Assembly: GCA_008501785.1 (NCBI GenBank)
Contig: QQUD01000581.1
Coordinates: 1-14,393, forward strand
DNA: 14,393 bases
From: Chloroflexota bacterium
GTDB taxonomy: Bacteria > Chloroflexota > Anaerolineae > Promineifilales > Promineifilaceae
Direction: 5' to 3'
Below the pieces are notes generated by a model. That model was not told the DNA's origin. It did not search any database and was given only the letters and a program-made list of their open reading frames with translations. Position numbers and translations under genes: made by a program. Of this stretch, positions 1,995-13,671 are shown piece after piece. How positions within the stretch are numbered: position 1 is the first letter of the stretch; every line of letters starts with the position of its first letter.

Positions 1995-2079
1995 TTGTAC
2001 CATTTATTAGTCTGACGGCCGTTTTCCAACCCACAAAAAAGCCAACAAAAACATATATTAGGCTTCGCCCTCCCCAATT

Positions 2080-2844
2080 TTACTGCCCCGTCATTATCCC
2101 CCCATCAATTGTGAGCGCCGTCCCTGTTATCCATGATGAATCGTCCGAGGCGAGGAACAGCGCCGCCTTGGCAACGTCATCTGGTGTGCCGAGTCGCTTC
2201 ATCAGCGTTTTGTTTCCAACTTCCTGCACAACCGTTGTTGGCTTAGCGAATGCTTTGGTAGAATCCCAAATGAGCGGCGTGTCTACCGGACCGGGGCAAA
2301 AGCAGTTTGCCCGAATTTTGTACTCGGCATAGTCAACAGCCCGGTTCCTGGTCAGCGATATGAGCGCTCCCTTGGAAGCGCAGTAAGCTGGGTGATTCGG
2401 GAATGCTTTGAATCCGGCGATGGATGCATTAATCACGATCTGGCCGCCGCCAGCTTTGATCATCTCGGGTATCCCGAAACGGTAGAGGTAAAAAACACCG
2501 TTGAGGTTTGTGCCAATGGTCTGGTTCCATGTTTCCAGCGGAACTTCTGTGACGGAGCCAATGCCTAATATGCCAGCGTTGGGAACCAGGATATTGATTT
2601 TGGCGTATTTATTGACTGCCTGCTGCACGAGATTTTCTACTTCATCGGCCTTGGAAATATCGGCAGCGATAAATATGGCTTCACCCCCGTCTTGCCTGAT
2701 TTCATCCACAATTTGATTGCCGCGCTCTACGCTGCGTCCGCTGAGAACTACTGAGGCACCCTATTTTGCAAACATTTTGGCGATGCCTTTGCCCATTCCG
2801 CTTGTTGCACCGCTGATGAGTGCTACTTTGTTTTTGAGTTTCAT
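2080..2844 (-). pseudogene. Short-chain dehydrogenase/reductase (SDR) interrupted by an in-frame amber codon
   Basis: Reading from ATG 2844, the frame gives a classical SDR of about 254 residues. It has the Rossmann glycine motif GATSGMGKG at residues 12-20, NAG at the end of beta-4, a catalytic-type Ser in INASIAG, the YCASK (YxxxK) motif, GPVDTPL, and the usual C-terminal SSWITGTALTIDGG. Codon 28 (2761-2763) is TAG inside the sequence FAK-stop-GASVVL, where classical SDRs have a sense codon such as Gln or Glu. The reading frame is otherwise intact, so this is a single nonsense change. The 3' part remains open from an internal ATG at 2709, but a product from there would lack the nucleotide-binding loop. 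Alternatives are a sequencing error (CAG or GAG read as TAG) or readthrough. An NAD(P)-dependent oxidoreductase is certain at family level; the substrate is unknown. Confidence 0.8.
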
Positions 2845-3206
2845 GTTGAGTCCTTTTTTGGTTTAACGGCCGTTTATCCACACTATCCATACACGGTCAA
2901 AGACCGAAAAAGAGAACTAGCACGGTCCGAAGACTGGCCAGAGCAGAGAGTTGAAAATTTTGTAAAACGATTTGCTAAATCGTTCGGTGCGATTTAGCAA
3001 ATCGCGTTACAAAGTGTCAAGTTAACTATGTGGATTTCTGAACCATTCCCTATTTACCTATCAAATAATAACGTTCATATCTAAAAAATGATTGCATTTT
3101 ATTAGTGTCTGGATAGGTTGATTAAGCTCCTATGTTGTAAGGTGAAGCTAATTCAATGATTTAGATTATTTATGGTGGGCAACCACTTGATAAAGGAGCA
3201 AATAAA
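2845..3206. other. Gene-free spacer between divergent SDR pseudogene and lipoprotein gene
   Basis: I see no credible coding frame in this 362-base interval. It holds one AACGGCCGTT palindrome (2865-2874), a nested inverted repeat (2968-3004), and an AT-rich stretch from about 3030 to 3190 that presumably carries the promoter of the lipoprotein gene. I could not pick out a convincing -35/-10 pair. Confidence 0.6.
2968..3004. repeat. 15-bp perfect inverted repeat whose arms are themselves palindromic
   Basis: The left arm CGATTTGCTAAATCG (2968-2982) and right arm CGATTTAGCAAATCG (2990-3004) are exact reverse complements around a 7-base loop. Each arm is also an inverted repeat of CGATTT with AAATCG around 3 bases, so the unit CGATTT occurs four times in alternating orientation. 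No T-run follows on either side, which argues against a simple intrinsic terminator. It may be a binding site for a dimer or tetramer, or a REP-like element. Confidence 0.6.
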
Positions 3207-3917
3207 ATGCGATACATACTTTTACTACTCATCGCGGCTGGCATTGTTTTAACGAGCTGTAACGTCGTTACCGGGTCTGGTGATGTGATCAGTGAAGAAC
3301 GTCAAGTTTCACGGTTTGAAGGGGTATCTCTCAGTGGGGTTGGTGAGATGACCGTGATACAGGCAGATGATCATTCTCTACTGATCGAAGCTGAAGATAA
3401 TATAGTGCCATATCTCACCACAGAAGTGCGTGGGGACATCTTATATATCGGGACCAAGGATGGTGTTTCATTACGAAACAATAAACCAATTAAATATACC
3501 ATCACAACACCTGATATTGAGCAGCTTGATATATTTGGTTCTGGCTCTATTTTTTCTGAAAGCATTGAATCTAAAAATTTGGATTTAGATGTTAGTGGCA
3601 GTGGCGAGATGACCATCGAAGAGCTTTCGGTTGACACATTGACGGTGAAAATTAGCGGTTCAGGGGATGTTGCCACGCAAGGTGAGGCTGGTTCCCAAGT
3701 TGTAGACATTTCTGGTTCTGGCGAATATGATGCGCCTGAATTAGTTAGTGAAGATGTCGAGATTGATGTAAATGGCTCTGGTGAGGCTGTTGTCTGGGCG
3801 AAAGAGTCGTTGTCGGTCGATATTAGTGGGTCTGGCACGGTTGCCTATCATGGACGCCCTCAAATTGAGCAATCCATTTCTGGCTCCGGTACGCTTGAAT
3901 CGGTAAACGGCCGTTAA
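3207..3917 (+). CDS. DUF2807-type (head GIN domain) putative lipoprotein
   Basis: This is a 236-residue exported protein. It begins with a lipoprotein signal peptide: a hydrophobic stretch at residues 3-15 and lipobox LTSC with Cys18 as the lipidation site. The rest is a repetitive beta-rich domain with many GSG turns (VSGSGEM, ISGSGDV, ISGSGEY, VNGSGEA, ISGSGTV, ISGSGTL), spaced as in the right-handed beta-solenoid of DUF2807 proteins. These are called putative auto-transporter adhesins, but their function is not established; a surface-anchored structural or adhesive role is inference. A clear Shine-Dalgarno AAAGGAG (3192-3198) lies 8 bases before the ATG. The last codons, Asn-Gly-Arg-stop, are formed by a copy of the AACGGCCGTT palindrome. 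It is a single-gene unit closed by a strong terminator. Confidence 0.88.
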   Translation: MRYILLLLIAAGIVLTSCNVVTGSGDVISEERQVSRFEGVSLSGVGEMTVIQADDHSLLIEAEDNIVPYLTTEVRGDILYIGTKDGVSLRNNKPIKYTITTPDIEQLDIFGSGSIFSESIESKNLDLDVSGSGEMTIEELSVDTLTVKISGSGDVATQGEAGSQVVDISGSGEYDAPELVSEDVEIDVNGSGEAVVWAKESLSVDISGSGTVAYHGRPQIEQSISGSGTLESVNGR

Positions 3918-3955
3918 CCTCCTCTCCCCTTCATTCCAACACACATTCTTGCTTT

Positions 3956-3995
3956 AGGTGAGACGCACTTCAGAAAGTGCGTCTCACCTTTTTTT
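3956..3995 (+). terminator. Intrinsic terminator of the lipoprotein gene
   Basis: A 15-bp perfect stem (3956-3970 with 3975-3989) with a 4-base loop CAGA is followed by a run of T (3990-3995). The hairpin lies directly beyond the stop codon of the convergent minus-strand gene (3994-3996). It may also hinder transcription from that side, although the minus strand has no T-run after it. Confidence 0.93.
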
Positions 3996-6186
3996 AGTCA
4001 GACGGCCGTTTCCACACCATAAACAAAGTCAACAAAAACACAATCCCAATCAACATCAATTGAATCGAAAGCGACGAAATGCTCGGTGAAAATCCAAGTG
4101 GGCGAGCTGCTTTATTGGCTGGTACAGCTTTTGGTAGTGGCACTGGCGTTACATCATCACCAATTGTCGGGATTAATGGCTGTTGTGAACCATCTTGCTC
4201 CAATAAAAATGCAATGATGATCTCAATTTGGTCTGGCGAGAGCCTTGTTGTGTAGTCACGTGGCATGATGTTGGCAATACACGGTCCGTTGGGGCATTCC
4301 TCCACAACAAACGCATTTGGATCAATAATGGATTCGCGCAGGTAGTCGGCAGTACTCATGCCCGAAATGCGTTCACCGGCGATGATGCCGATTGCAGATA
4401 AATCAGGTCCCACTTTACCCCCTTCACCCATTCCGCCAATGGCATGACAAGCGCCGCAGCCTGCATTGAGAATTACCTCTTCGGGACTTTGCCCTTCAAT
4501 GGGGCGGGGTGTTGCGGTTGGCGCAGGTGTGTTGGTTGGTGCAGGGGTTGGTGTGATGGTTGGTGTGGGCATGGCGGCGATTTCTTCTGCAGTGGGTTGA
4601 TGTGGTTCTTCGCCAGGGGTGAATCGCAAGATGGCTTCACATTCATTGACTCCCGGCTCTGGGTCTGGCGAACACCACCAGGGGCCGCCCTTTTTCGTTT
4701 TGAGCAAGGGTACATACCAGTAAACTAAATCTTCGTTGACGAGATTGTCGCCGTTAATCCATTGGCGTGGTGGTTGGAACGTGTCGCCGGGACCCGTGGA
4801 GGTGGGACCTTCTCCTTCGCCTGCGTTGTCTTGCAGGATGAAGAAGTAGGCCTCGTCTAATCCAAGTGGGTCTGTACGATCCATTTGCACGTGGTAATGT
4901 AAATCGTTGCTGCTGATAACTGCTTTGTCACCATTGGGGGCCATGTCGTTGAAAAATGGGAACAGCTCCAGTTCTTCTTCGGCTACAAACCACATGTTGT
5001 CTTGCCAGATGGAAATTGTGTCATTGGCTGCGCCGCCGATGTCGAGGTCGAATCGCCAAAACGGCCGATACACCGACAAATCATCACAGCCTGGACCATG
5101 TGAGACAAAGTTAGCTTCAAGCGTGCCGTCAGCAAAAAAGCGCAGTACTTCTTCGTAGCGGTAGCAGCAGACGCAGTTGGGCCAGCGCGTAAATTCGGTA
5201 AAAAGCTGGCGCACTTCGAAGCCGTTGCCTAAATCATTGACTTCGGTATCATCAAAAGGCGGGACGGAGGCACTGAACCCAACTTCGTCACGATAGCCGC
5301 CGGGCCAGCTTGGATACCATGCTTCGATTTGGGTGATTTTGACGCTGGAGAAGATTTCGGTGCCATTGAAAGTGGCGTCGTAGAAGTTAACACCGTCGTG
5401 GGCGGTCATTTCCCAGCAGACATCCCAGCCGTACTGCTGGTTGCAGCCGTTGGTGAATGCGCCGCGCTGCATGATTGGCTCGGGTACATCGAGTTCGGGG
5501 CGCCCACGAGTGTAAAAGGTGCGGGCCACTTCGTTGCGGGTCATGTTCACAAAGACGTGGTAGACGCGCCCGCTGCCTGCGGGGTCTACAAAGGAGAGAT
5601 CGACGCACCAATCATCGCGGCATTCGTTGTCGGACAGCCATGCAGACATGGGGACCATGGCTGGGTCGGCGTCACCGATTTGACCGAGAACGGCCGTTAC
5701 CCCCATATCCCGCGCCGCAATGTCCATCGCTCGTGACAGGATGTGTGTGCTGCCGCCAGGGCGAACGGCCGTATCCATCCATGATCCCACCACTTCACTT
5801 GATTTCAGATTGACAATGGCGTTGACTGTACCCCCATCTGTGTGATTATAAAACAACACATGAGAGCAACTGTTATGTGTACATCCTGCATCGCGCCACG
5901 GAGCCGCCTCACCATATCCCAACGGCACTGCATTTACAAATTCGAGTGACTTTTCTTGATTCCACTGGTGAATGATCGGTTCGGCCAGTGTGATTGATTG
6001 CATGTTCACTGGATTGATCGCCACTTCTGGCATCGTGATCATATCCAGCATGGCTCCCCCTTTCGCAACAGCTAATTGCACAGTGCTATTTTGCCTGTTG
6101 CCAAACTGAAAGAAACTTAAGACACAAAATAATAGTGCCGCAATGCCTAAACGAACGATAGATTGCCCGCGTGATCTGCTTCTCAA
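3994..6186 (-). CDS. Exported degenerate copper-amine-oxidase-like protein fused to a cytochrome c domain
   Basis: The protein has 730 residues, with a TTG start at 6186 chosen for its Shine-Dalgarno AGGAG six bases upstream. It has a hydrophobic N-terminus (about 11-29), a Cys-rich region (about 50-500), a Pro/Thr linker (540-562), a class I cytochrome c domain with CGACH (C577, C580, H581) and a probable distal Met641 (NIMPRD), and a C-terminal membrane helix (about 706-725). The region TAHDGVNFYDATFNG...CYRYEEVLRFFADGTLEANF...FDLDI resembles the catalytic domain of copper amine oxidases. Y342 sits where the topaquinone Tyr would be (C-Y-R-Y for N-Y-D/E-Y). The HxH copper ligands appear replaced by YRP (373-375), and the third His position (WYVPLL, about 490) is also lost. 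The cytochrome part is secure; the amine-oxidase resemblance is from memory and less sure. It probably sits on the outer face of the membrane. No partner genes adjoin it. Confidence 0.75.
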   Translation of the reverse strand: MRSRSRGQSIVRLGIAALLFCVLSFFQFGNRQNSTVQLAVAKGGAMLDMITMPEVAINPVNMQSITLAEPIIHQWNQEKSLEFVNAVPLGYGEAAPWRDAGCTHNSCSHVLFYNHTDGGTVNAIVNLKSSEVVGSWMDTAVRPGGSTHILSRAMDIAARDMGVTAVLGQIGDADPAMVPMSAWLSDNECRDDWCVDLSFVDPAGSGRVYHVFVNMTRNEVARTFYTRGRPELDVPEPIMQRGAFTNGCNQQYGWDVCWEMTAHDGVNFYDATFNGTEIFSSVKITQIEAWYPSWPGGYRDEVGFSASVPPFDDTEVNDLGNGFEVRQLFTEFTRWPNCVCCYRYEEVLRFFADGTLEANFVSHGPGCDDLSVYRPFWRFDLDIGGAANDTISIWQDNMWFVAEEELELFPFFNDMAPNGDKAVISSNDLHYHVQMDRTDPLGLDEAYFFILQDNAGEGEGPTSTGPGDTFQPPRQWINGDNLVNEDLVYWYVPLLKTKKGGPWWCSPDPEPGVNECEAILRFTPGEEPHQPTAEEIAAMPTPTITPTPAPTNTPAPTATPRPIEGQSPEEVILNAGCGACHAIGGMGEGGKVGPDLSAIGIIAGERISGMSTADYLRESIIDPNAFVVEECPNGPCIANIMPRDYTTRLSPDQIEIIIAFLLEQDGSQQPLIPTIGDDVTPVPLPKAVPANKAARPLGFSPSISSLSIQLMLIGIVFLLTLFMVWKRPSD

Positions 6187-6192
6187 GAGACA

Positions 6193-6197
6193 CTCCT
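6193..6197 (-). promoter_or_regulatory. Ribosome binding site deciding a TTG start
   Basis: On the minus strand AGGAG lies 6 bases before the TTG at 6186-6184. No ATG exists in frame nearby upstream, and the signal-like hydrophobic segment begins right after this start. Confidence 0.75.
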
Positions 6198-6232
6198 GAA
6201 ATGGTTATCGTTGGACAAGACGCTGGTCTTGT

Positions 6233-6248
6233 ACCAACTTCGGTTGGT
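6233..6248 (+). promoter_or_regulatory. Small hairpin with UUCG tetraloop between divergent genes
   Basis: ACCAAC-TTCG-GTTGGT forms a 6-bp perfect stem closed by C(UUCG)G, an unusually stable RNA tetraloop. GTCT/AGAC sequences outside could extend the stem after an internal loop. It lies about 90 bases upstream of coaBC, possibly in its leader. The role is unknown. Confidence 0.4.
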
Positions 6249-6336
6249 TTAGACAAAACAGCGTTTTGTGCTACGGATGTTATTGGAGTGCGATTATACC
6301 GATTTGATTTACGTTTTGCGATTTACGAATTAAACT

Positions 6337-7569
6337 ATGGGTATGGAACCGATAACACTTTTACAAAACAAACGCATTCTTCTGGGTGTGACCGGCTCTG
6401 TGGCCTGCTATAAAGCGATTGATCTGGCATCAAAGTTAATGCAAGCGGGGGCAGAAGTCGATGTGATAATGACGGAAGCGGCGCAGCAGTTTGTGACGCC
6501 GTTAGCTTTTCGGTCGGTGACTGGCCGACACGTTTTTTCGGATATGTGGGCGACTGACCAGCATGTGCAGCATGTTAATTTAGGCGAAACGGCCGATTTG
6601 CTGGTCATTGCTCCGGCAACCGCGCACACGATGGCAAAAATGGCGCAAGGAATGGCCGATAATTTGCTGACTGTGACTGCGTTGGCGGCCCGCTGCCCTG
6701 TATTGATTGCGCCGGCAATGGATGGCGGCATGTTTGTGCATCCATCGACGCAGGCCAATGTGAATACGCTCAAGGGGTGGGGTGCTATCATGGCTGGCCC
6801 TGCTACCGGGCGCATGGCTTCAGGCTTGTCTGGATTGGGTCGCATGTTGGAGCCGATGGCGTTGCTGGCACACATTCGGCTGACGCTGGCAAAACAAGGC
6901 CGCTTAAAAGGTCGCCGGGTGGTGGTGTCAACTGGTCCAACGCGGGAGGCGCTGGACCCGGTGCGGTTTATTAGTAATCGTTCGACGGGCAAACAAGGGT
7001 TAGCGGTGGCGCAAGCGGCGCTCGATGCTGGTGCAAAAGTTTGCCTGATTCACGGCCCCATTTCAGAGCCGCTGCCAATTGGCGTGGAAACTGTGCCGGT
7101 GGAAACGTCGGCAGAAATGGCGGACGCTGTTCTGGGAGCTGTGAAAGATGCGGATGCGCTGTTTATGGTGGCGGCGGTGGCCGATTTCCGCCCTGGTAAT
7201 CAGTCTGAGCAAAAGATCAAAAAGACGGACGAGAAGTGGGGATTGGCTATTGGCCTTGAAAAAACGCTGGATATTCTCAGTGCTGTTAAGGAGCAGCGTG
7301 AAATAACGGGGTATCCACGGGTTTCGCTCGGATTTGCGGCAGAGACAAACAATGCTTTTGAATATGGTCGCGACAAACTCCTGCGTAAAGGTCTGAATTT
7401 TATTGCCGTCAATGATGTGACGGATGAGGGCGTTGGCTTTGGTGTGGACACGAACAAGATTCTACTGCTCAGTTCGGCGGGCGTGGTGGAAGAGATTCCT
7501 TTGCAGAGCAAAACGGCCGTTGCAGAACGTCTTGTCCATTATGTTGGGAAGACTTTGAATGGAAATTAA
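6337..7569 (+). CDS. coaBC: Bifunctional phosphopantothenoylcysteine decarboxylase/phosphopantothenate-cysteine ligase
   Basis: The 410-residue length is usual for CoaBC, which adds cysteine to 4'-phosphopantothenate (CoaB) and then decarboxylates the product (CoaC) in coenzyme A synthesis in the cytoplasm. The N-terminal CoaC flavoprotein half (about 10-185) shows GVTGSVACYKAI, catalytic His79 (HVNLGETADLLVIAPAT) and PAMDGGMF. The C-terminal CoaB half (about 190-405) shows STGPTREALDPVRFISNRST and the KIKK lysines (293-296). Two classic CoaC positions differ: the Asn of PxMNxxMW is Asp129, and the flap Cys of ACGxxGxGRM is Ser162 (ASGLSGLGRM). From memory similar variants occur in other Chloroflexota, so this may be lineage-typical. 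No good Shine-Dalgarno precedes ATG 6337; ATG 6343 is an alternative. Downstream is a terminator hairpin and a convergent glycosyltransferase. Confidence 0.95.
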   Translation: MGMEPITLLQNKRILLGVTGSVACYKAIDLASKLMQAGAEVDVIMTEAAQQFVTPLAFRSVTGRHVFSDMWATDQHVQHVNLGETADLLVIAPATAHTMAKMAQGMADNLLTVTALAARCPVLIAPAMDGGMFVHPSTQANVNTLKGWGAIMAGPATGRMASGLSGLGRMLEPMALLAHIRLTLAKQGRLKGRRVVVSTGPTREALDPVRFISNRSTGKQGLAVAQAALDAGAKVCLIHGPISEPLPIGVETVPVETSAEMADAVLGAVKDADALFMVAAVADFRPGNQSEQKIKKTDEKWGLAIGLEKTLDILSAVKEQREITGYPRVSLGFAAETNNAFEYGRDKLLRKGLNFIAVNDVTDEGVGFGVDTNKILLLSSAGVVEEIPLQSKTAVAERLVHYVGKTLNGN

Positions 7570-7693
7570 GGGGCAAGGGACTTGTGGGCTATAACCAACG
7601 TCCTATTTATGAAAATGTAGGGGGGATTTATAATCTGTGTCAGTTGTATTGGAAGCATTTTAGCTAACGTAATGGAAGAGTATAATTTTAATG

Positions 7694-7719
7694 CAAAGCG
7701 GACCCAAAGGTCCGCTTTG
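7694..7719. terminator. Convergent-gene hairpin, likely intrinsic terminator
   Basis: CAAAGCGGACC (7694-7704) and GGTCCGCTTTG (7709-7719) form an 11-bp perfect stem with loop CAAA. It is followed by a T-rich TTTGG stretch on the plus strand. It separates coaBC from the convergent glycosyltransferase that ends at 7726. The plus-strand U-tract is interrupted and the minus strand has none, so it is a moderate terminator, probably for coaBC. Confidence 0.7.
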
Positions 7720-7725
7720 TTTGGT

Positions 7726-8856
7726 TTAGGTGATGTGTCGGTAGATTTGCAACGTGCTGTTGGCTGCTTTTTTCCATGAAAAATTTTGTGCCTGTGTTTT
7801 TCCTTTTTCTTCTAATTCAAACCGTAATGAATCATTTGCCAGTAAACGGCCGATAACTGTTGCCATCTCGCGCACATTCGTTGGGTCGAAATAATGGGCT
7901 GCGTCACTACCAATCTCTGGCAGGCTGGAACTATTGGCACAGGAAACGGCAGTTCCACATGCCATTGCTTCTATCACAGGTAATCCAAATCCTTCATACA
8001 AGCTGGGAAAAACAAATAAAGCTGCGCTGCTGTACAGTGCAGCCAAATCTGCCTCAGGGATGGGGCCTAAAAATTGCACAGCGTTTTCGATGCCGAATTC
8101 GGCTGCTTTTTGCTGGGGTTCAGGGTAACGGTTAATCCAAGCGCCAGCGATGATTAATTGGGGTGGGTTCTCTTGCTCGTCAATGATGATTTTCCACGCT
8201 TCTAACAAACGAACCAGATTTTTGTGCGGTTTATTGCTGCCCAAATAAAGCGCATATGTCTCAGGTAAATTGTATTTATGGCGGATTTGAAGAATGGTTG
8301 ATTCAGGTTGGGGTTGAAAAATGGGATCGGGGGCAAGGGGAACGGCCGTTACCTTTTCCGGCTGTATGGGAAAAGCTGCTAACAAATCCCGCCGTGTTGT
8401 CTCTGAAATGACAATGATATGGTTGGCACTGCGCAGCGCCAGTCGTGTCGCGAGACGAGACAGGAGCCTTGCCTGAAGCGAAACCGTTTGCGGAAATAGC
8501 TGTGGAATTAAATCATAAATGGTGACAACCGTCGGCACTTTTGGTCGGTAAGGCATTAAATAATATGGGCTGTGATACATGGTAGCTTGATGTTGATGTA
8601 GCTGCTGCGGAATTGCCCATTGTTGGCGAATTGAAAATGGGGAAATGGTTTTCTCCATCACAATTGTGTTGATATTGGCGGTTGTTGGCATCTGCCAATG
8701 ATCGGAAGTTTCTCCAGGGTTTTGCAGAAAGAGTAGTTCTTCATTGGGCAATAGCTGCGTTGCCATCGCCTGCCCTAAATTGCTGACATATCGGCCAATG
8801 CCTGGAAAATGGTCGGTTGTGGTTCGTGCATCTAAAACGTATGAATTTTTTTTCAT
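7726..8856 (-). CDS. GT4-family glycosyltransferase (second gene of the pair)
   Basis: This 376-residue cytoplasmic or membrane-peripheral GT-B enzyme transfers a sugar from an activated donor to a glycan or lipid acceptor. It shows the N-terminal glycine loop GIGRYVSNL, the linker motif YLGSNKPHKNLVRLLEAW (about 204-221), and the donor-binding signature EGFGLPVIEAMACGTAV with the EX7E glutamates at about 288 and 296. It resembles mannosyl/rhamnosyltransferases of O-antigen and exopolysaccharide clusters; the actual donor is not decidable. I take ATG 8856 as the start. The frame continues upstream to a TTG at 8886, but neither start has a good Shine-Dalgarno, and the ATG sits directly before the first beta strand (NSYVLDA). 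It lies 48 bases behind the upstream glycosyltransferase, on the same strand, so co-transcription is likely. Confidence 0.9.
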   Translation of the reverse strand: MKKNSYVLDARTTTDHFPGIGRYVSNLGQAMATQLLPNEELLFLQNPGETSDHWQMPTTANINTIVMEKTISPFSIRQQWAIPQQLHQHQATMYHSPYYLMPYRPKVPTVVTIYDLIPQLFPQTVSLQARLLSRLATRLALRSANHIIVISETTRRDLLAAFPIQPEKVTAVPLAPDPIFQPQPESTILQIRHKYNLPETYALYLGSNKPHKNLVRLLEAWKIIIDEQENPPQLIIAGAWINRYPEPQQKAAEFGIENAVQFLGPIPEADLAALYSSAALFVFPSLYEGFGLPVIEAMACGTAVSCANSSSLPEIGSDAAHYFDPTNVREMATVIGRLLANDSLRFELEEKGKTQAQNFSWKKAANSTLQIYRHIT

Positions 8857-8904
8857 GAGTTTCTTTGTAAGTAAACAACAGAGCAATTATTTTTTGCTGA
8901 TTGG

Positions 8905-10071
8905 TTAATGAAAAAGCTCTGAGTAAATGACTTCAACCTCATGAGCCACGCGCTTGATATTGAAGTGAGATTCGGCATGTAAACGGCCGTTTCTCCCCAT
9001 TTCAATGCGTCTGGCTGGCTGGTTGAGGAGTTGCGTCACAGCCGCTGCCAATTTCACTTCATTTTCTGATGAAATCAACAGGCCCGTTTTTTCATGCACA
9101 ACAATTTCTGGCAATGCGCCATGTGCAAATGCGACCACTGGCTTCCCTAGGGCCATCGCTTCCACATTCACCAATCCAAATGGCTCTGGCGCACCAGCAT
9201 GGACAAAAATGTCCAATGCTGCCAACGCAGGCCTCACATCCGGCAAATGCCCTGTAAAAGTGATCCGGTTGGTGAGATTGTGTTTCGCTGCTAGCTGATG
9301 AAGGTCCTTTTCAAACCCATCGTTTACCTGAAAGGGGGAGCCACCGACAATGAGGAATCGGGCAGATGGATTGGATTTGGCCACTTTTGCGGCAATGCGA
9401 ATGAATCGATCCTGCCCCTTCCAGGGACGCAGCCGACCCACTGTGCCAATCAGCGGCGCATCAGGCGGGATGTTGAACCGGTGGCGGAAAGTGGAAGAAA
9501 CGGCCGTTTCGGCTGCGCTCAGTGCTGGCGTTACCCCAAACGTTGACAAATCAATACCGTTATGTACAACATGGACCTTTTTGGGACATGGCAGATGTGT
9601 GGCAACGGCAAGAGAGTTTGCAATCACTGCTGTAGATGCATTGCACAACCATCGTTTGCCCCATCGATCTAGCCACAGGCGATTGGGTTTTGCTTCGGAT
9701 AGCCAAAAGTCGCGCATGTGCCAGATGCAGGGGAGATTTGTTTTTTGGGCGGTAACGGCCGTAACCATTGCCGCTCGCACCGTGTTGGCATGAAGCAACA
9801 CGGCTCCAATTTCTTTGGCGATCTGGGCAATGCCATCTGCCGCTTGCCGCAGGTTTTTGATGAAACTGGTTGATCTGCGCAGGCGAGGTAAGGGAGTGAG
9901 GTGCGTTGGGATGTTAACAGCCCTAGCAGCCTTACTCAACTCACCCTCTACACAAGCCAGATGCGGCTGCCATTGTTGCCGATCGAGATGCTGCATGAGC
10001 AAGAGCAGGCTTTTTTCTGCTCCCCCCAAAGCAGCAGCGTGATCAACAAAAAGGATAGGTTTTGGTGTCAT
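8905..10071 (-). CDS. GT4-family glycosyltransferase (first gene of the pair)
   Basis: This 388-residue GT-B enzyme has the N-terminal acceptor-side glycine loop HAAALGGAEKSLLLL (about 11-25), a central VIANSLAVATHL and VVHNGIDLSTF hinge, GTVGRLRPWKGQDRFI (about 209-224) with the nucleotide-binding Arg/Lys pair, and EPFGLVNVEAMALGKPVVA (E296 and E304 as the EX7E pair). Members build capsule, lipopolysaccharide-like or glycolipid sugars. It is the first gene of a two-gene minus-strand unit and is divergent from the HDAC-fold gene, sharing a spacer of 182 bases. The start is ATG 10071; the Shine-Dalgarno is weak. Three AACGGCCGTT-type palindromes lie within it (8982, 9499, 9754). Confidence 0.92.
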   Translation of the reverse strand: MTPKPILFVDHAAALGGAEKSLLLLMQHLDRQQWQPHLACVEGELSKAARAVNIPTHLTPLPRLRRSTSFIKNLRQAADGIAQIAKEIGAVLLHANTVRAAMVTAVTAQKTNLPCIWHMRDFWLSEAKPNRLWLDRWGKRWLCNASTAVIANSLAVATHLPCPKKVHVVHNGIDLSTFGVTPALSAAETAVSSTFRHRFNIPPDAPLIGTVGRLRPWKGQDRFIRIAAKVAKSNPSARFLIVGGSPFQVNDGFEKDLHQLAAKHNLTNRITFTGHLPDVRPALAALDIFVHAGAPEPFGLVNVEAMALGKPVVAFAHGALPEIVVHEKTGLLISSENEVKLAAAVTQLLNQPARRIEMGRNGRLHAESHFNIKRVAHEVEVIYSELFH

Positions 10072-10211
10072 AGTGAATCAACCATTTTTTTAACAGCGGT
10101 CCAAATCGGATAAGCCCCAATCCATTGGTGAAACTAAAATTGCGATACATCCCAATCTGTTGTTGAAATAAACACAAAAGTCGTAGACAATCTTTGCACC
10201 ATAAAAGTATA

Positions 10212-10238
10212 CAGGTGGTTTGTAGGTTTCACCACCTG
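10212..10238. promoter_or_regulatory. 8-bp inverted repeat upstream of HDAC-fold gene
   Basis: CAGGTGGT (10212-10219) and ACCACCTG (10231-10238) are perfect reverse complements around an 11-base spacer. They end 15 bases before ATG 10254. The position fits either an operator or an RNA hairpin in the leader. Confidence 0.45.
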
Positions 10239-10253
10239 GCAATGTAAGAATTT

Positions 10254-11153
10254 ATGAAAATATTTCATTATGATCAACACACATTTCCACTTCCTGAGGA
10301 ACATCGTTTTCCAGTAGCCAAATATGGGATGCTGCGGCAGCGAGTGCTGGCAGCAAATGTGGTGCCAGTTGAAAACATTCAATCACCCGAACCGGTTTTT
10401 GATGTCGATTTACGGCGAGCGCACACCAGAGATTATTTGCATCGGTTTGAAAATGGATTGCTGACTGATGCCGAGGTACGCCGAATTGGGCTGCCTTGGT
10501 CGCCGGAACTGGTGCAGCGCGTTAAATACACAGCAGGGGCGACCATTGCTGTTTGCCACAATGCATTGCGGGATGGCGTGGCGTTGTCGCTAGGGGGCGG
10601 CACGCACCATGCCTGCTCAGATCATGGGCAGGGGTACTGCCTTTACAATGATAGTGTGGTGGCGGCACGAGCGCTGCAAGCAGAAGGTTTGGTGCAACAT
10701 GTGTTGGTGATTGATTGTGATGTTCATCAGGGCAATGGCACGGCCGAAATCACCACCGGCGACTCATCTATTTTTACATTTTCGATTCACGGTGAAAAAA
10801 ACTTTCCCTTCCGCAAGATTCCCAGTGATTTAGATGTGGGTTTGCCAGATGGCACGGGCGATGAAGCGTATTTGGATGTGCTCGAAGGTGCGTTGGATTC
10901 GGCTCTGGCGCAGTCTCGCCCAGACCTGGCAATTTACCTGGCTGGGGCTGATGTGCATGAGAACGATCGGTTAGGACGGCTTGCACTCACAAAATCGGGC
11001 ATCGGTTTTCGGGATGAATTGGTGTTGTCGAAATGCCAGGAAATGGAGATTCCGGTGGGGGTGGTGATGGCAGGAGGATACGGCCGTAACCTCTCCGAAA
11101 TGGTTGACATCCAGTTACAAACCGTAAACATTGCAGCTTCTTTTTCACCATAA
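10254..11153 (+). CDS. Histone-deacetylase-fold zinc hydrolase (deacetylase-like)
   Basis: This 299-residue enzyme belongs to the arginase/deacetylase superfamily, which removes acyl groups from amines such as acetylated lysine or polyamines using one zinc ion. All key residues are present: the His pair in GGGTHHA (H118, H119), YCLYND, zinc ligands D156 and H158 in VIDCDVHQGNGT, the third ligand D233 in AGADVHENDRLGRL, and the transition-state Tyr276 in AGGYGRN. The short length, without extra domains, fits bacterial HDAC11-like members. The substrate cannot be read from sequence. It stands alone: a divergent glycosyltransferase is upstream and a MITE-like element downstream. The Shine-Dalgarno at ATG 10254 is poor, but the conserved start of the domain (FHYDQHTF) fits. 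Confidence 0.93.
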   Translation: MKIFHYDQHTFPLPEEHRFPVAKYGMLRQRVLAANVVPVENIQSPEPVFDVDLRRAHTRDYLHRFENGLLTDAEVRRIGLPWSPELVQRVKYTAGATIAVCHNALRDGVALSLGGGTHHACSDHGQGYCLYNDSVVAARALQAEGLVQHVLVIDCDVHQGNGTAEITTGDSSIFTFSIHGEKNFPFRKIPSDLDVGLPDGTGDEAYLDVLEGALDSALAQSRPDLAIYLAGADVHENDRLGRLALTKSGIGFRDELVLSKCQEMEIPVGVVMAGGYGRNLSEMVDIQLQTVNIAASFSP

Positions 11154-11169
11154 ATACGGTAATTATTTT

Positions 11170-11337
11170 GAAAATCCGGCATGGTTCAGTATCAGAAAAA
11201 TCATCTTTACAATATTGTTCTAAGAGGGCGACCACAAGAGTCCGCCCTTACACAAGGTCGAATCGTAGGGCGATCCTTGTGGTCATCCAAAATGTGTAAA
11301 GATCATTCATTTAATTTTGAACCATGTCGAAAATCCG
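11170..11337. mobile_element. MITE-like element of 150 bp with 9-bp target duplication
   Basis: The 9-bp direct repeat GAAAATCCG stands at 11170-11178 and 11329-11337. Between them is a 150-bp segment with imperfect terminal inverted repeats of about 33 bp. The outer block is CATGGTTCA (11180-11188) against TGAACCATG (11318-11326). The inner block is ATCTTTACA (11203-11211) against TGTAAAGAT (11295-11303). The core has further inverted repeats: GACCACAAG (11230-11238) with CTTGTGGTC (11276-11284), and GGGCG (11226-11230) with CGCCC (11243-11247). It encodes nothing. It sits between two convergent genes and could fold into a bidirectional transcription stop. Confidence 0.7.
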
Positions 11338-11367
11338 TTTTCCCACCCTATTCGTGTTAATAAAAGG

Positions 11368-12027
11368 CTATTCACGACTTTTTGCATAATCTTCAAGGTA
11401 GGCTGGCAGCGGAACGCCTTCTTTGAGCTTGTCATCAGCCTCTAGCCCCCCGAAAACAGTACGCATTGGCAAAATACCTGCCCACACATCTAGCGCATAA
11501 TCTTCATCATCGTCACCTGGTCCACCTTCACGAATTTTGGCCGAGGCGGACTCGATGGGAACGGAGACGATATGGGTTGCTTTGGTTTCTTTGGCATTGG
11601 GAATGCGGGCATTGGCCCAGCGCCCTGGAATCAGCTTTTCGGTGAACACTTTGAGTGCTTCCATTTTGGCATCGGCATCTTCAATCAGGTAGCCTTTGCC
11701 AAACAAAACGGCCGAACGATAATTCATTGAGTGGTGGAAAACAGAGCGTGCCAGTACCAGTCCATCGAGATGCGTAACCGTGATGCAAATGTCGCTGCCA
11801 CGAGCGATCTGTTTTAGCATACGGCTGGTGGTTGCGCCGTGCAGCAAAATATTGTCACCTTGTCGGGCGTGGATGGTGGGGATCACAAACGGACGGCCGT
11901 TTTCTACAAATCCCACATGGCAAATCAACGCATCATCTACAATCGCGTAAATTGTCTCCTTGTCGTATTGGCCTCGCTGCGGAACCCGGCGGACACGATT
12001 TAAATCAGTTTTTGGGAAAGTTTCCAT
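11368..12027 (-). CDS. Pyridoxamine 5'-phosphate oxidase-like FMN-binding protein
   Basis: The 219-residue protein has the split-barrel fold of the PNPOx-related flavin-binding group (Pyridox_ox_2 type). Visible features are the leading RVRRVPQRGQYDKETIYAIVDDA, a first barrel segment ICHVGFVENGRPFVIPT, ILLHGATTSRMLKQI, the strand ICITVTHLDGLVLARS, and HSMNYRSAVLFGKG, the region that in this family contacts FMN phosphate. The enzymatic role is unproven; such proteins can be flavin reductases or detoxifying enzymes. The start is ATG 12027, selected over a longer frame from 12063 because AAGGAG lies 6 bases upstream of it. It is divergent from a MocR/PdxR-type regulator, a common pairing that suggests the regulator controls it and that its function is tied to vitamin B6 or flavin. 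Confidence 0.88.
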   Translation of the reverse strand: METFPKTDLNRVRRVPQRGQYDKETIYAIVDDALICHVGFVENGRPFVIPTIHARQGDNILLHGATTSRMLKQIARGSDICITVTHLDGLVLARSVFHHSMNYRSAVLFGKGYLIEDADAKMEALKVFTEKLIPGRWANARIPNAKETKATHIVSVPIESASAKIREGGPGDDDEDYALDVWAGILPMRTVFGGLEADDKLKEGVPLPAYLEDYAKSRE

Positions 12028-12048
12028 TGTTGTCTCCTTGAAAATGGT

Positions 12049-12077
12049 GGGGCAAAGGGGCAAGGGGCAAGGGGCAA
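12049..12077 (+). repeat. Four tandem GGGGCAA units; G-quadruplex motif
   Basis: Units start at 12049, 12057, 12064 and 12071 (the first has an extra A). Four GGGG runs with 3-4 base loops meet the standard intramolecular quadruplex pattern on the plus strand. It lies between the PNPOx-like start and the predicted promoters, so the minus-strand transcript would carry the C-rich copy in its leader. Confidence 0.65.
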
Positions 12078-12116
12078 AACTCCCGCTGACTCTGCGCTCT
12101 TTGCGGTGTGAATTCT

Positions 12117-12144
12117 ATTTTAGATGAAATTGGTTGTGTTACAA
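12117..12144 (-). promoter_or_regulatory. Predicted promoter for the PNPOx-like gene
   Basis: On the minus strand, TTGTAA (12144-12139) and TAAAAT (12122-12117) are separated by 16 bases. It overlaps the predicted plus-strand -10 of the MocR-type gene, so the two promoters would exclude each other. Prediction only. Confidence 0.35.
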
Positions 12145-12145
12145 T
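12137..12145 (+). promoter_or_regulatory. Predicted extended -10 promoter for the MocR-type regulator
   Basis: TGTTACAAT is an extended -10 element (TGn plus TACAAT). No good -35 is present. It lies 44 bases before the chosen start codon at 12190. Confidence 0.4.
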
Positions 12146-12178
12146 AGCCATTATTTGCAAAAATGGGCATACCAATGT

Positions 12179-12183
12179 GGGAG
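12179..12183 (+). promoter_or_regulatory. Ribosome binding site deciding the start of the MocR-type gene
   Basis: GGGAG lies 6 bases before ATG 12190. It supports that start over the in-frame ATGs at 12163 and 12175, which lack such a site. Confidence 0.7.
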
Positions 12184-12189
12184 TGTTTG

Positions 12190-13671
12190 ATGGGTAAAAT
12201 TGCTTCGTTTGTTTCATTGGCCGGGATATTGTTGGATCGTGACGATGGGTTGCCACTTTATCAGCAGCTTTATGATCAGATTCGTTATATGATTTTGAAT
12301 GGTGTGCTGCTGGCTGGCTCTCGATTGCCGCCGACGCGCACGCTTTGTGAGGAGCTGGATTTGTCGCGCAGTACGGTGGTGGAGGCGATGGCGCAGCTCA
12401 AGGCGGAAGGCTATTTGGAGAGCCAAGTGGGTCGCGGCACGTTTGTTGCGGTGGCGCTTCCTGAAAAGTTGCTGCGTGTGCCTGACGATGCTCATGTTGT
12501 TGCGCAGCCAGTTGGCGAAGCGGTTGGGGTGCTTTCGGAACGGGGGGAGCGGTTAACGGCCGTTTCCATCCCCTCCAAACAGCACGGCCTCTTTCGTCCC
12601 GGTATGCCAGACACCCATACCTTTCCACTCAAAACGTGGCGCAAGTTGATCGACAACCATTGGCAAAATGCGAACATTGAATCACTCGGCTATGGTGATC
12701 CCGCAGGGTATTTACCACTGCGGCAAGCGATTGCAGAGCATGGTCGCCTTGCACGTCGGGTCAATTGTGTACCTGAGCAGGTGATCATCACGGCTGGCGC
12801 ACAACAAGCACTTTATCTGACGGCACAACTGCTTGTTGGATCAGGGGATCAAGTTTGGGTTGAAAATCCAGGTTACAGCGGAGCGCACGTTGCATTTCGG
12901 GCAGCGGGCGCAAATTTGTGTCCGATTCAGGTTGACGAAAATGGACTGGATGTTGAAGCTGGCATTGCCTCCGCACCCAATGCAAAGCTGATTTACGTTT
13001 GCCCGTCACACCAATATCCGGTAGGTGGCACTTTACCGGTGGCGCGGCGCCTCCAGCTATTGTCGTGGGCGGCACAGCAGGGTGCATGGATTGTTGAAGA
13101 TGATTATGACAGTGAGTACCGGTACAGCGGACATCCGTTGGCATCGTTACAAGGGCTTGATTTGCAGCAGCGAGTCATTTACATGGGCACATTTAGCAAG
13201 GTGATGTTTCCGTCGATTCGATTGGGGTATGTGATTGTGCCGATGCAGCTGTGTGATGCGTTTGTGAAGGCGCGAAGTGTGATTGATCGCGGGTCGAGTA
13301 CGGTGACGCAGATGGCATTGGTTGATTTTATGCGGGAGGGTCATTTTTCGCGGCATATTCGGCGATTGCGAGTCATTTATGCACAACGACAGCAGGCGGC
13401 GATTGCGGCGATTGCGGCGTTGTGTGATGGGATGTTGACGGGTCGGCCGTTTCCTGCTGGTATTCACTTACTCGCCTGGTTGCCAGAAAGGTGGGACGAT
13501 CAAGCTGTTACGGCAGCGTTATCTGAGCATGGCTTTGCCATACAGCCCTTGTCAAATTACAGCTTAACCCGGTTAAATCGTGGCGGCCTTGTATTGGGGT
13601 ATGCCGCCCATGATGAGACGATGATTTGGTCAGGGGTAAAAAAGATGGCTGAGACCCTAAGACACTTTTAA
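12190..13671 (+). CDS. MocR/PdxR-type GntR regulator with aminotransferase-like domain
   Basis: The product has 493 residues. Residues about 18-88 form a GntR winged helix (LPLYQQLYDQIRYMIL, AGSRLPPTRTLCEELDLSRS, VGRGTFV). The rest is a class I aminotransferase fold. The PLP-binding positions are present: Asp304 (VEDDYDSEYR), Lys337 for the Schiff base (GTFSKVMFP) and Arg344. In this family, PLP or its adduct controls DNA binding; PdxR members regulate vitamin B6 genes and others act on GABA or taurine genes. The divergent PNPOx-like gene makes a B6- or flavin-linked regulon plausible, with autoregulation from overlapping promoters. The ligand is not decidable. No AACGGCCGTT copy lies in the C-terminal two-thirds, only a partial match near 13442. 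Confidence 0.93.
   Translation: MGKIASFVSLAGILLDRDDGLPLYQQLYDQIRYMILNGVLLAGSRLPPTRTLCEELDLSRSTVVEAMAQLKAEGYLESQVGRGTFVAVALPEKLLRVPDDAHVVAQPVGEAVGVLSERGERLTAVSIPSKQHGLFRPGMPDTHTFPLKTWRKLIDNHWQNANIESLGYGDPAGYLPLRQAIAEHGRLARRVNCVPEQVIITAGAQQALYLTAQLLVGSGDQVWVENPGYSGAHVAFRAAGANLCPIQVDENGLDVEAGIASAPNAKLIYVCPSHQYPVGGTLPVARRLQLLSWAAQQGAWIVEDDYDSEYRYSGHPLASLQGLDLQQRVIYMGTFSKVMFPSIRLGYVIVPMQLCDAFVKARSVIDRGSSTVTQMALVDFMREGHFSRHIRRLRVIYAQRQQAAIAAIAALCDGMLTGRPFPAGIHLLAWLPERWDDQAVTAALSEHGFAIQPLSNYSLTRLNRGGLVLGYAAHDETMIWSGVKKMAETLRHF

Follow-up and report, generated by a model that had tools for sequence, protein, structure and literature searches.

The window analysed here, a stretch of 14,393 nucleotides from a Chloroflexota bacterium (contig QQUD01000581.1), contains many copies of the 8-bp palindrome ACGGCCGT, and the same palindrome recurs thousands of times per genome in relatives from a single order of the class Anaerolineae. 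On balance, we think it probable that this is an independently evolved signal at the level of DNA, of the type known from highly iterated palindrome 1 (HIP1) of cyanobacteria: a CGGCCG palindrome with a lineage-specific outer pair of bases, carried by one Chloroflexota order and at least one phage, and read by a palindrome-binding factor.

In the window, CGGCCG occurs 20 times, 14 times as ACGGCCGT and six times as ACGGCCGA/TCGGCCGT, in which one outer base is changed. The longer word AACGGCCGTT is found eight times, compared with a mean of 0.01 and a maximum of one in 200 dinucleotide shuffles, while ACGGCCGT and ACGGCCGA/TCGGCCGT together give 34 strand-matches, where shuffles give 0.73 on average and 6 at most. 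An order-3 Markov model trained on the window predicts 0.42 copies of ACGGCCGT and 0.07 of AACGGCCGTT. The original prediction, made from the letters of the window, had reported eight perfect 10-mers, 19 core sites within 2014-12564 and equal-base expectations of 0.014 for the 10-mer and about 0.2 for the 8-bp palindrome. All of these figures were reproduced (the last as 0.22), and a 20th site lies at 13443-13450 on the opposite strand. The excess it described is real, but the 10-mer that it took as the repeat does not hold as the unit: the repeated unit is ACGGCCGT, built on a deeper CGGCCG core whose outer pair depends on lineage, and AACGGCCGTT comprises those copies in which A/T follows as the next base. 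When each side is read 5'-ward on its own strand, an A is present on one or both sides of all 20 sites. At position -1, A reaches 75% in the window, compared with 40% in the pool of relatives sharing the A..T outer pair (A-type).

Genome-wide frequency was judged from the genomes of relatives, which are drafts, rather than from the window's own. A search with the CoaBC protein of the window placed its nearest relatives (protein identity 71-78%) in Chloroflexota drafts whose titles include Ardenticatenaceae, Promineifilum and Anaerolineae. Among 24 Chloroflexota loci, ACGGCCGT leads all 8-bp palindromes in 18, ties for first place in one (L016) and is outranked in the other five. As a control word of equal composition we used TGCCGGCA, which is ACGGCCGT read backwards. 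Whole-genome counts in 24 genomes reached 15,176 copies of ACGGCCGT in 7.5 Mb, versus 183 of TGCCGGCA. Of the 56 genomes in the order of genome G002 (class Anaerolineae), 30 exceed 400 ACGGCCGT per Mb, and the 28 A-type genomes hold 437-2,102 copies per Mb versus 7-66 of TGCCGGCA, a ratio of about 10-201. In these uncultured bacteria, motif-rich genomes have about one ACGGCCGT per 500 to 2,000 letters. In an even draw of 298 genomes from the whole class, only ten exceeded 400 per Mb, and all ten belong to this order. An abundance far above genome-wide expectation, as is characteristic of HIP-type palindromes, was thus found with the Markov model on the loci and with the TGCCGGCA comparison on whole genomes of relatives. 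A frequency near chance had been named beforehand as the sign that the window was a local accident; the relatives contain thousands of copies per genome instead.

The target of a restriction-modification system should be avoided, and in this order there is a strong excess instead. In some class relatives the CGGCCG core is avoided, as expected for restriction. According to the count table, 33 of the 298 class genomes have at most ten ACGGCCGT and at least 41 TGCCGGCA, and loci L019 and L020 contain no CGGCCG in 42 kb.

Across the order, the CGGCCG core is combined with an outer pair that is specific to the lineage and can be A..T, T..A, G..C or none. We refer to these forms as dialects (A-, T-, G- and N-type); the labels are our own and were assigned from samples of 4-60 kb of each genome, with under 10 kb for five genomes. 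T-type genomes G317 and G117 have 74 and 83 copies of TCGGCCGA in 60 kb each, and the G-type genome G202 has 68 copies of GCGGCCGC in 41 kb. N-type genomes, where CGGCCG shows no outer preference, are G174, G300, G224 and G332-334, probably joined by G335 and G336. A different word is iterated in G324, which across the whole genome has 3,665 copies of TGCCGGCA in 4.0 Mb versus 14 of ACGGCCGT and hardly any CGGCCG (loci L081, L082 and L243). Thirteen genomes were labelled weak, with a weak or near-zero excess, and G320, G321 and G325 have no excess. Beyond the 8-mer, position -1 is A/T in T-type and mostly C in G-type genomes.

The dialects follow the phylogeny to a large extent. In a tree of a single gene, CoaBC (48 rows), 25 A-type genomes and the window form one clade, interrupted by a Promineifilum-like weak subclade and by G325. 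Five N-type genomes also form a clade, and the T-type genomes group with N-type G174. Overall, the six labels require nine changes on this tree, versus 20.3 when shuffled. Alignment column 253 holds ACGGCCGA in 16 of the 25 A-type rows and TCGGCCGA in both T-type rows; column 578 holds ACGGCCGT in nine A-type rows and GCGGCCGC in the G-type row. At these two columns, the dialect of a site thus changes in place.

Individual sites are strongly conserved. In the CoaBC genes of 21 species, 59 copies fall into seven ungapped columns, one of which is common to 18 species. Among ten locus pairs, which are not independent of each other, the motif is found in both members at 162 positions and in one member at 37, against a background 8-mer identity of 12-64%. 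L007 and L008 share 17 sites and differ at one (background 32%), L001 and L023 share 29 and differ at five (31%), and the lowest pair, L008 and L014, share two and differ at two. At 19 of the 37 unshared positions, the sequences differ by at least three bases. Where the encoded tripeptide is conserved, all eight bases are kept at 67 of 67 sites in the TAV frame (amino acids in one-letter code) and at 33 of 34 in the xGR frame, versus 1,099 of 2,796 conserved background tripeptides of fourfold-degenerate residues. The gap-free columns and the conserved sites are consistent with the HIP-type mode of spread by substitution and maintenance without insertion, with selection and biased repair not being separated as the maintaining force.

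Words one base away from the motif are in excess when the change is at an outer position (206 versus 77 expected) and in deficit at inner positions (77 versus 116). Near-misses at the first and last base are also the pattern of HIP1, and would suit methylation-linked repair as in Elhai's HIP1 model. There, an orphan methyltransferase marks CGGCCG or GGCC, mismatch repair directed by the marked strand ratchets near-sites into the motif, and the flank determines which sites are read. As a sign of 5-methylcytosine, we looked for C-to-T decay in the A-type pool and saw no clear excess of C-to-T one-off words; in N-type G300, the one-off word CGACCG occurs 23 times versus 10 expected.

Within the window, 18 of the 20 sites lie inside frames that we took as genes, in all three reading frames, and two are intergenic. 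The site-by-site translation matches the placements within and between genes given in the original prediction. The sites spell TAV/TAD/TAE/SAV, NGR/YGR/IGR or RP, and in one case a gene end including its stop. The genes that carry them belong to ordinary families: DUF2807, cytochrome-c-like, CoaBC, two glycosyltransferases, histone-deacetylase-family, pyridoxamine-oxidase-like and a GntR/aminotransferase regulator. The sites are as follows, with a strand where one is assigned:

2015..2022: ACGGCCGT, intergenic
2865..2874: AACGGCCGTT, intergenic, upstream of a short-chain dehydrogenase (SDR) frame
3906..3915: AACGGCCGTT, 3' end of the DUF2807 gene, NGR followed by the stop
4002..4009: ACGGCCGT, end of the cytochrome-c-like gene, KRPS
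5061..5068, plus strand: ACGGCCGA, one outer base off, YRPF, gene on the minus strand
5689..5698: AACGGCCGTT, TAV
5765..5772: ACGGCCGT, TAV
6589..6596, plus strand: ACGGCCGA, coaBC, TAD, taken as CoaBC alignment column 253 (TCGGCCGA in both T-type genomes)
7512..7521: AACGGCCGTT, coaBC, TAV, taken as alignment column 1195 (motif in 18 of 21 species)
7846..7853, plus strand: ACGGCCGA, IGR, glycosyltransferase gene on the minus strand
8341..8350: AACGGCCGTT, TAV
8982..8991: AACGGCCGTT, NGR
9499..9508: AACGGCCGTT, TAV
9755..9762: ACGGCCGT, TAV
10740..10747, plus strand: ACGGCCGA, TAE, histone-deacetylase-family gene
11080..11087: ACGGCCGT, YGR
11708..11715, plus strand: ACGGCCGA, SAV, gene on the minus strand
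11893..11900: ACGGCCGT, NGR
12555..12564: AACGGCCGTT, TAV, GntR/aminotransferase regulator gene
13443..13450, minus strand: ACGGCCGA, GRPF, the 20th site, beyond the span originally described

Unlike most of the remainder, positions 1-2014 of the window contain no CGGCCG; this part begins with a GCC-rich repeat and is possibly newly acquired DNA. The SDR frame has an in-frame stop at 2761-2763 (minus strand) and does not cover the N-terminal region of its Pfam profile, which suggests a broken or miscalled gene.

The motif governs how particular tripeptides are encoded. In A-type open reading frames (ORFs), TAV is spelled with the motif in 279 of 293 cases (95%), where codon usage predicts about 15%. 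The corresponding tripeptides are SA[DE] in T-type (101 of 110) and AAA in G-type ORFs (32 of 34); in each of these three flanked dialects, 92-95% of the dialect's own tripeptides are encoded by the motif. For one another's tripeptides, the flanked dialects use the motif in 0-16% of cases, with N-type genomes in between (31-61%). The tripeptides themselves are also enriched. Each flanked dialect has its favoured tripeptide near 100 times per 100 kb of ORF, and outside their own dialect TAV and SA[DE] are found 5-25 times per 100 kb, with a higher and more variable background for AAA (25-99). Beyond its effect on codon choice, the motif therefore brings about amino-acid changes. Together with the strong site conservation, the rewriting of different tripeptides in three dialects bears out the earlier proposal that selection acts on DNA rather than protein, with the reservation made above about biased repair.

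Since the majority of copies lie in coding sequence and favour the frames in the order TAV > NGR > RP, the motif might be regarded as a by-product of codon or amino-acid preference, of base composition or of assembly artefacts. Using crude ORF calling (ORFs starting with M) on 536 copies in 19 A-type stretches, 502 copies lie wholly in ORFs, spread along their length (1,819 per Mb), and 34 wholly outside (841 per Mb). As in HIP-type systems, copies thus occur within genes in all three frames and between genes, and they do so on both strands. Considering also the gap between predicted and observed TAV spelling, the shift of tripeptide with dialect, the agreement of independent assemblies and the fact that TGCCGGCA is about 10-200 times rarer than the motif in the 28 A-type genomes, we regard the probability of a by-product as negligible.

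The motif is also present in phage DNA. Three scans of IMG/VR for three nearby motif copies, a design that favours dense contigs, yielded 22 contigs, ten with 1,613-3,739 copies per Mb in the pieces analysed and 12 with 292-1,519, which may partly be chance. One contig was verified as phage by its terminase, portal and head protease, and the hosts of the viral contigs were assigned by the motif alone. The verified phage contains 167 copies in 46.8 kb (3,565 per Mb), above every genome counted. Among 80 terminase relatives, only the phage itself and one other (74% identity, 3,739 per Mb) exceed 500 per Mb, and the other 78 have at most 225. In their aligned part, these two share one copy and differ at two. 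In the ORFs of three dense viral contigs, including the verified phage, TAV is spelled with the motif in 198 of 207 cases. A joint scan of 47 ORFs from three contigs found Mu-like portal and protease domains, with the carrier contig not named.

A phage denser in the motif than any genome counted, a related contig of similar density and the TAV spelling in the three viral contigs could point to a signal of self-recognition or protection. Motif-rich DNA would be spared by a cellular nuclease or defence system, and chromosome and phages alike would be selected to carry the motif, comparable to Chi, which spares DNA from RecBCD. We consider this reading fairly improbable. Of the ten dense viral contigs, nine were first detected by the search for dense motifs, so they say little about how common the motif is among host phages; the verified phage seems to be Mu-like and could remain in the chromosome for long periods. 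Furthermore, no nuclease or defence gene is tied to the motif, and Chi is strand-oriented but the motif is palindromic. Distinctly improbable, in our view, is the stronger version in which the motif is a genome-wide identity mark, where a cellular system tolerates only motif-dense DNA in chromosome and phages alike and lineages shift the outer pair as a 'password', each time rewriting thousands of codons. Because the phage carries the motif, a role in protecting or identifying DNA is nevertheless worth testing, at low probability.

Two motif-dense viral contigs contain PAPS-reductase-like genes that distantly resemble DndC (L162:12027-13187, minus strand; L164:5093-6151, plus strand) and score far below the DndC cut-off. 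A simple repeat scan for arrays of clustered regularly interspaced short palindromic repeats (CRISPR) in the host loci, which could have linked phages to hosts, returned only a tandem in L094. This locus, of G-type G202, has tandem units of about 82 bp at about 7923-8400.

Following the suggestion in the original prediction that an orphan methyltransferase be looked for, we searched the 56 genomes of the order for cognate genes, and no candidate tracks the motif. The C5 methyltransferase family PF00145 is found in 26 genomes and is absent from 14 of the 28 A-type genomes; we rejected it on this ground. The N4/N6 methyltransferases of PF01555 are over the cut-off in 45 genomes and in five of ten genomes given a second look, and were rejected for their patchy distribution. 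Clustering, which covered part of the matches (26 PF00145 proteins from 30 loci, four having no frame by our filter, and 30 PF01555 proteins), gave no cluster that tracks the dialects. In N-type G224, neither these two families nor the enzyme described next has a match at E <= 0.001. Phosphorothioation was also rejected: the Dnd sites of Streptomyces have a GGCC core, which CGGCCG contains, but DndC is over its cut-off in only five of the 56 genomes, all A-type. MutL (49 of 56) does not discriminate.

A candidate that at first seemed promising within the order is a 657-aa amino-methyltransferase with a permuted motif order (DPMMGGGTT, then TDPPY; motif I then IV), for which a weak NCBIfam match (76 bits versus a cut-off of 1000) suggests a DUF1156-like nature. 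It was matched in 26 of the 28 A-type genomes (in seven only partially or in pieces), both T-type genomes and the G-type genome. It was also matched in 12 of the 13 weak genomes, in G336 and partly in G320, but in none of the six main N-type genomes, nor in A-type G013 and G156. Outside the order, a class-wide search that scored at most four candidates per genome found it in 18 genomes, with identities of 46-58%, and each of these is motif-poor (23 at E <= 1e-60). Its tree interleaves motif-rich and motif-poor genomes. On account of these motif-poor carriers and of the motif-bearing genomes in which it is missing, we rejected it as the cognate enzyme. As such, it is a conserved, orphan-looking amino-methyltransferase in many class genomes (L351:1273-3246, minus strand; L373).

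For methylation-linked repair, the one-off pattern, the presence of MutL in most genomes and the match of the 657-aa enzyme to nearly all flanked-dialect genomes are favourable. The distributions of PF00145 and of the 657-aa enzyme, the case of G224 and the lack of a dialect-tracking cluster are not, and the A..T and T..A dialects create no G-methylC step, which the published model requires. Taken together, we hold methylation-linked repair to be unlikely, with a chance still large enough to be kept in view.

DNA-uptake sequences offer another comparison. The known ones are non-palindromic and strand-oriented, many sit in terminators, and those of the Neisseriaceae show dialects; the uptake signal sequences of the Pasteurellaceae belong to the same class. 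In high density, lineage dialects and drive-like spread, they seem to resemble the motif studied here, and ComEC is encoded in 50 of the 56 genomes, which could suggest an uptake sequence spread by biased transformation (molecular drive). We find this very improbable: most of the order's motif-poor genomes also encode ComEC, which thus does not discriminate, the 8-mer is its own reverse complement and not strand-oriented, its copies are thinner between genes, and a phage carries it at higher density than the host genomes.

The closest analogue remains HIP1, as originally proposed, with which the motif shares its length and palindromic nature, an overlapping density (300-2,700 per Mb for HIP1 in Table 2 of PMC4390886) and one-off words that deviate mainly at the first and last base (PMC4390886). 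According to Robinson 1997 and Xu 2018, as cited in PMC6604393, HIP1 spreads by substitution and selection maintains it. The motif studied here is not HIP1 proper: GCGATCGC, the HIP1 word, has no copy in the window, the closest relatives are Chloroflexota and not cyanobacteria, the core here is CGGCCG, and no near-universal specific cognate methyltransferase was found. Alternate HIPs and HIP1 derivatives in cyanobacteria (TCGATCGA, GGGATCCC, GGCGCC and others; Elhai 2015) likewise show outer variants around a kept core, and the different palindrome TGCCGGCA in G324 similarly replaces the usual one. Elhai 2015 (PMC4390886) reports outer-base bias, similar densities, replaced palindromes and nearly always a fitting methyltransferase; in its section 2.5, each alternate HIP is paired with a putative methyltransferase that could act on it. 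In contrast, no such match was found here, where PF00145 is missing from half of the A-type genomes and the 657-aa enzyme is not confined to motif-rich genomes, and the dialects here follow clades of one order. Because a fitting methyltransferase is not established, we file the motif as HIP-type in a broad sense, as a variant.

Literature searches, judged by titles and abstract beginnings, listed no report of this palindrome as a genomic repeat; ACGGCCGT appears as a word in an unrelated paper, and AACGGCCGTT in others, one of them on the binding sites of a Thermus regulator. The main text of PMC12772301 has no match to CGGCCG, and the methylated motifs described for lake Chloroflexi of another lineage are GANTC, TTAA and GCWGC (PMC6329791).

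We thus favour a HIP-type signal read by a sequence-specific palindrome-binding factor, which would be none of the standard cytosine methyltransferases tested. This putative factor would act on all DNA that resides in the cell. Sites would arise by base substitution, and either DNA with sites would be favoured or near-miss sites would be converted into the motif, with inner-base near-misses being removed, until site density settles near one per 0.5-2 kb. If the specificity of the factor for the outer bases drifts, a change in its contact with the outer pair could switch sites to a new dialect in place. Its role may lie in repair, chromosome structure or DNA protection.

Several observations weigh against this interpretation. 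No reader gene was found, as none of the families searched (cytosine and amino-methyltransferases, DndC, MutL, ComEC) tracks the motif. The tripeptide at TAV-frame sites is conserved in 67 of 109 cases, no higher than the background (2,796 of 4,448), and this argues against simple strong selection on each site. Motif density in noncoding DNA is under half of that in coding DNA. The spacing of sites is close to random (mean coefficient of variation 0.89 versus 0.94, P = 0.08), so there is no strict rule of one site per interval, and regular spacing was dropped as not significant. The Promineifilum-like subclade within the A-type clade has a weak excess, and no lost gene was identified there. 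Despite their weak excess, genomes labelled weak still lean towards motif spelling for TAV (9 of 17) and SA[DE] (10 of 16), with AAA at 4 of 87. The short stretches behind the dialect labels and the draft state of the genomes also count on this side.

What HIP1 does has been an unanswered question since the 1990s, in part because no example outside cyanobacteria was known. The independent counterpart described here has several dialects, and has been lost and has switched within one order, which makes it suitable for comparative work: correlating gene content with the motif offers a way to search for the reader. Further assets of this system are the almost complete control exerted over specific codons and the presence of the motif in at least one phage. 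It also demonstrates that a signal at the level of DNA can be strong enough to alter amino acids at many protein sites.

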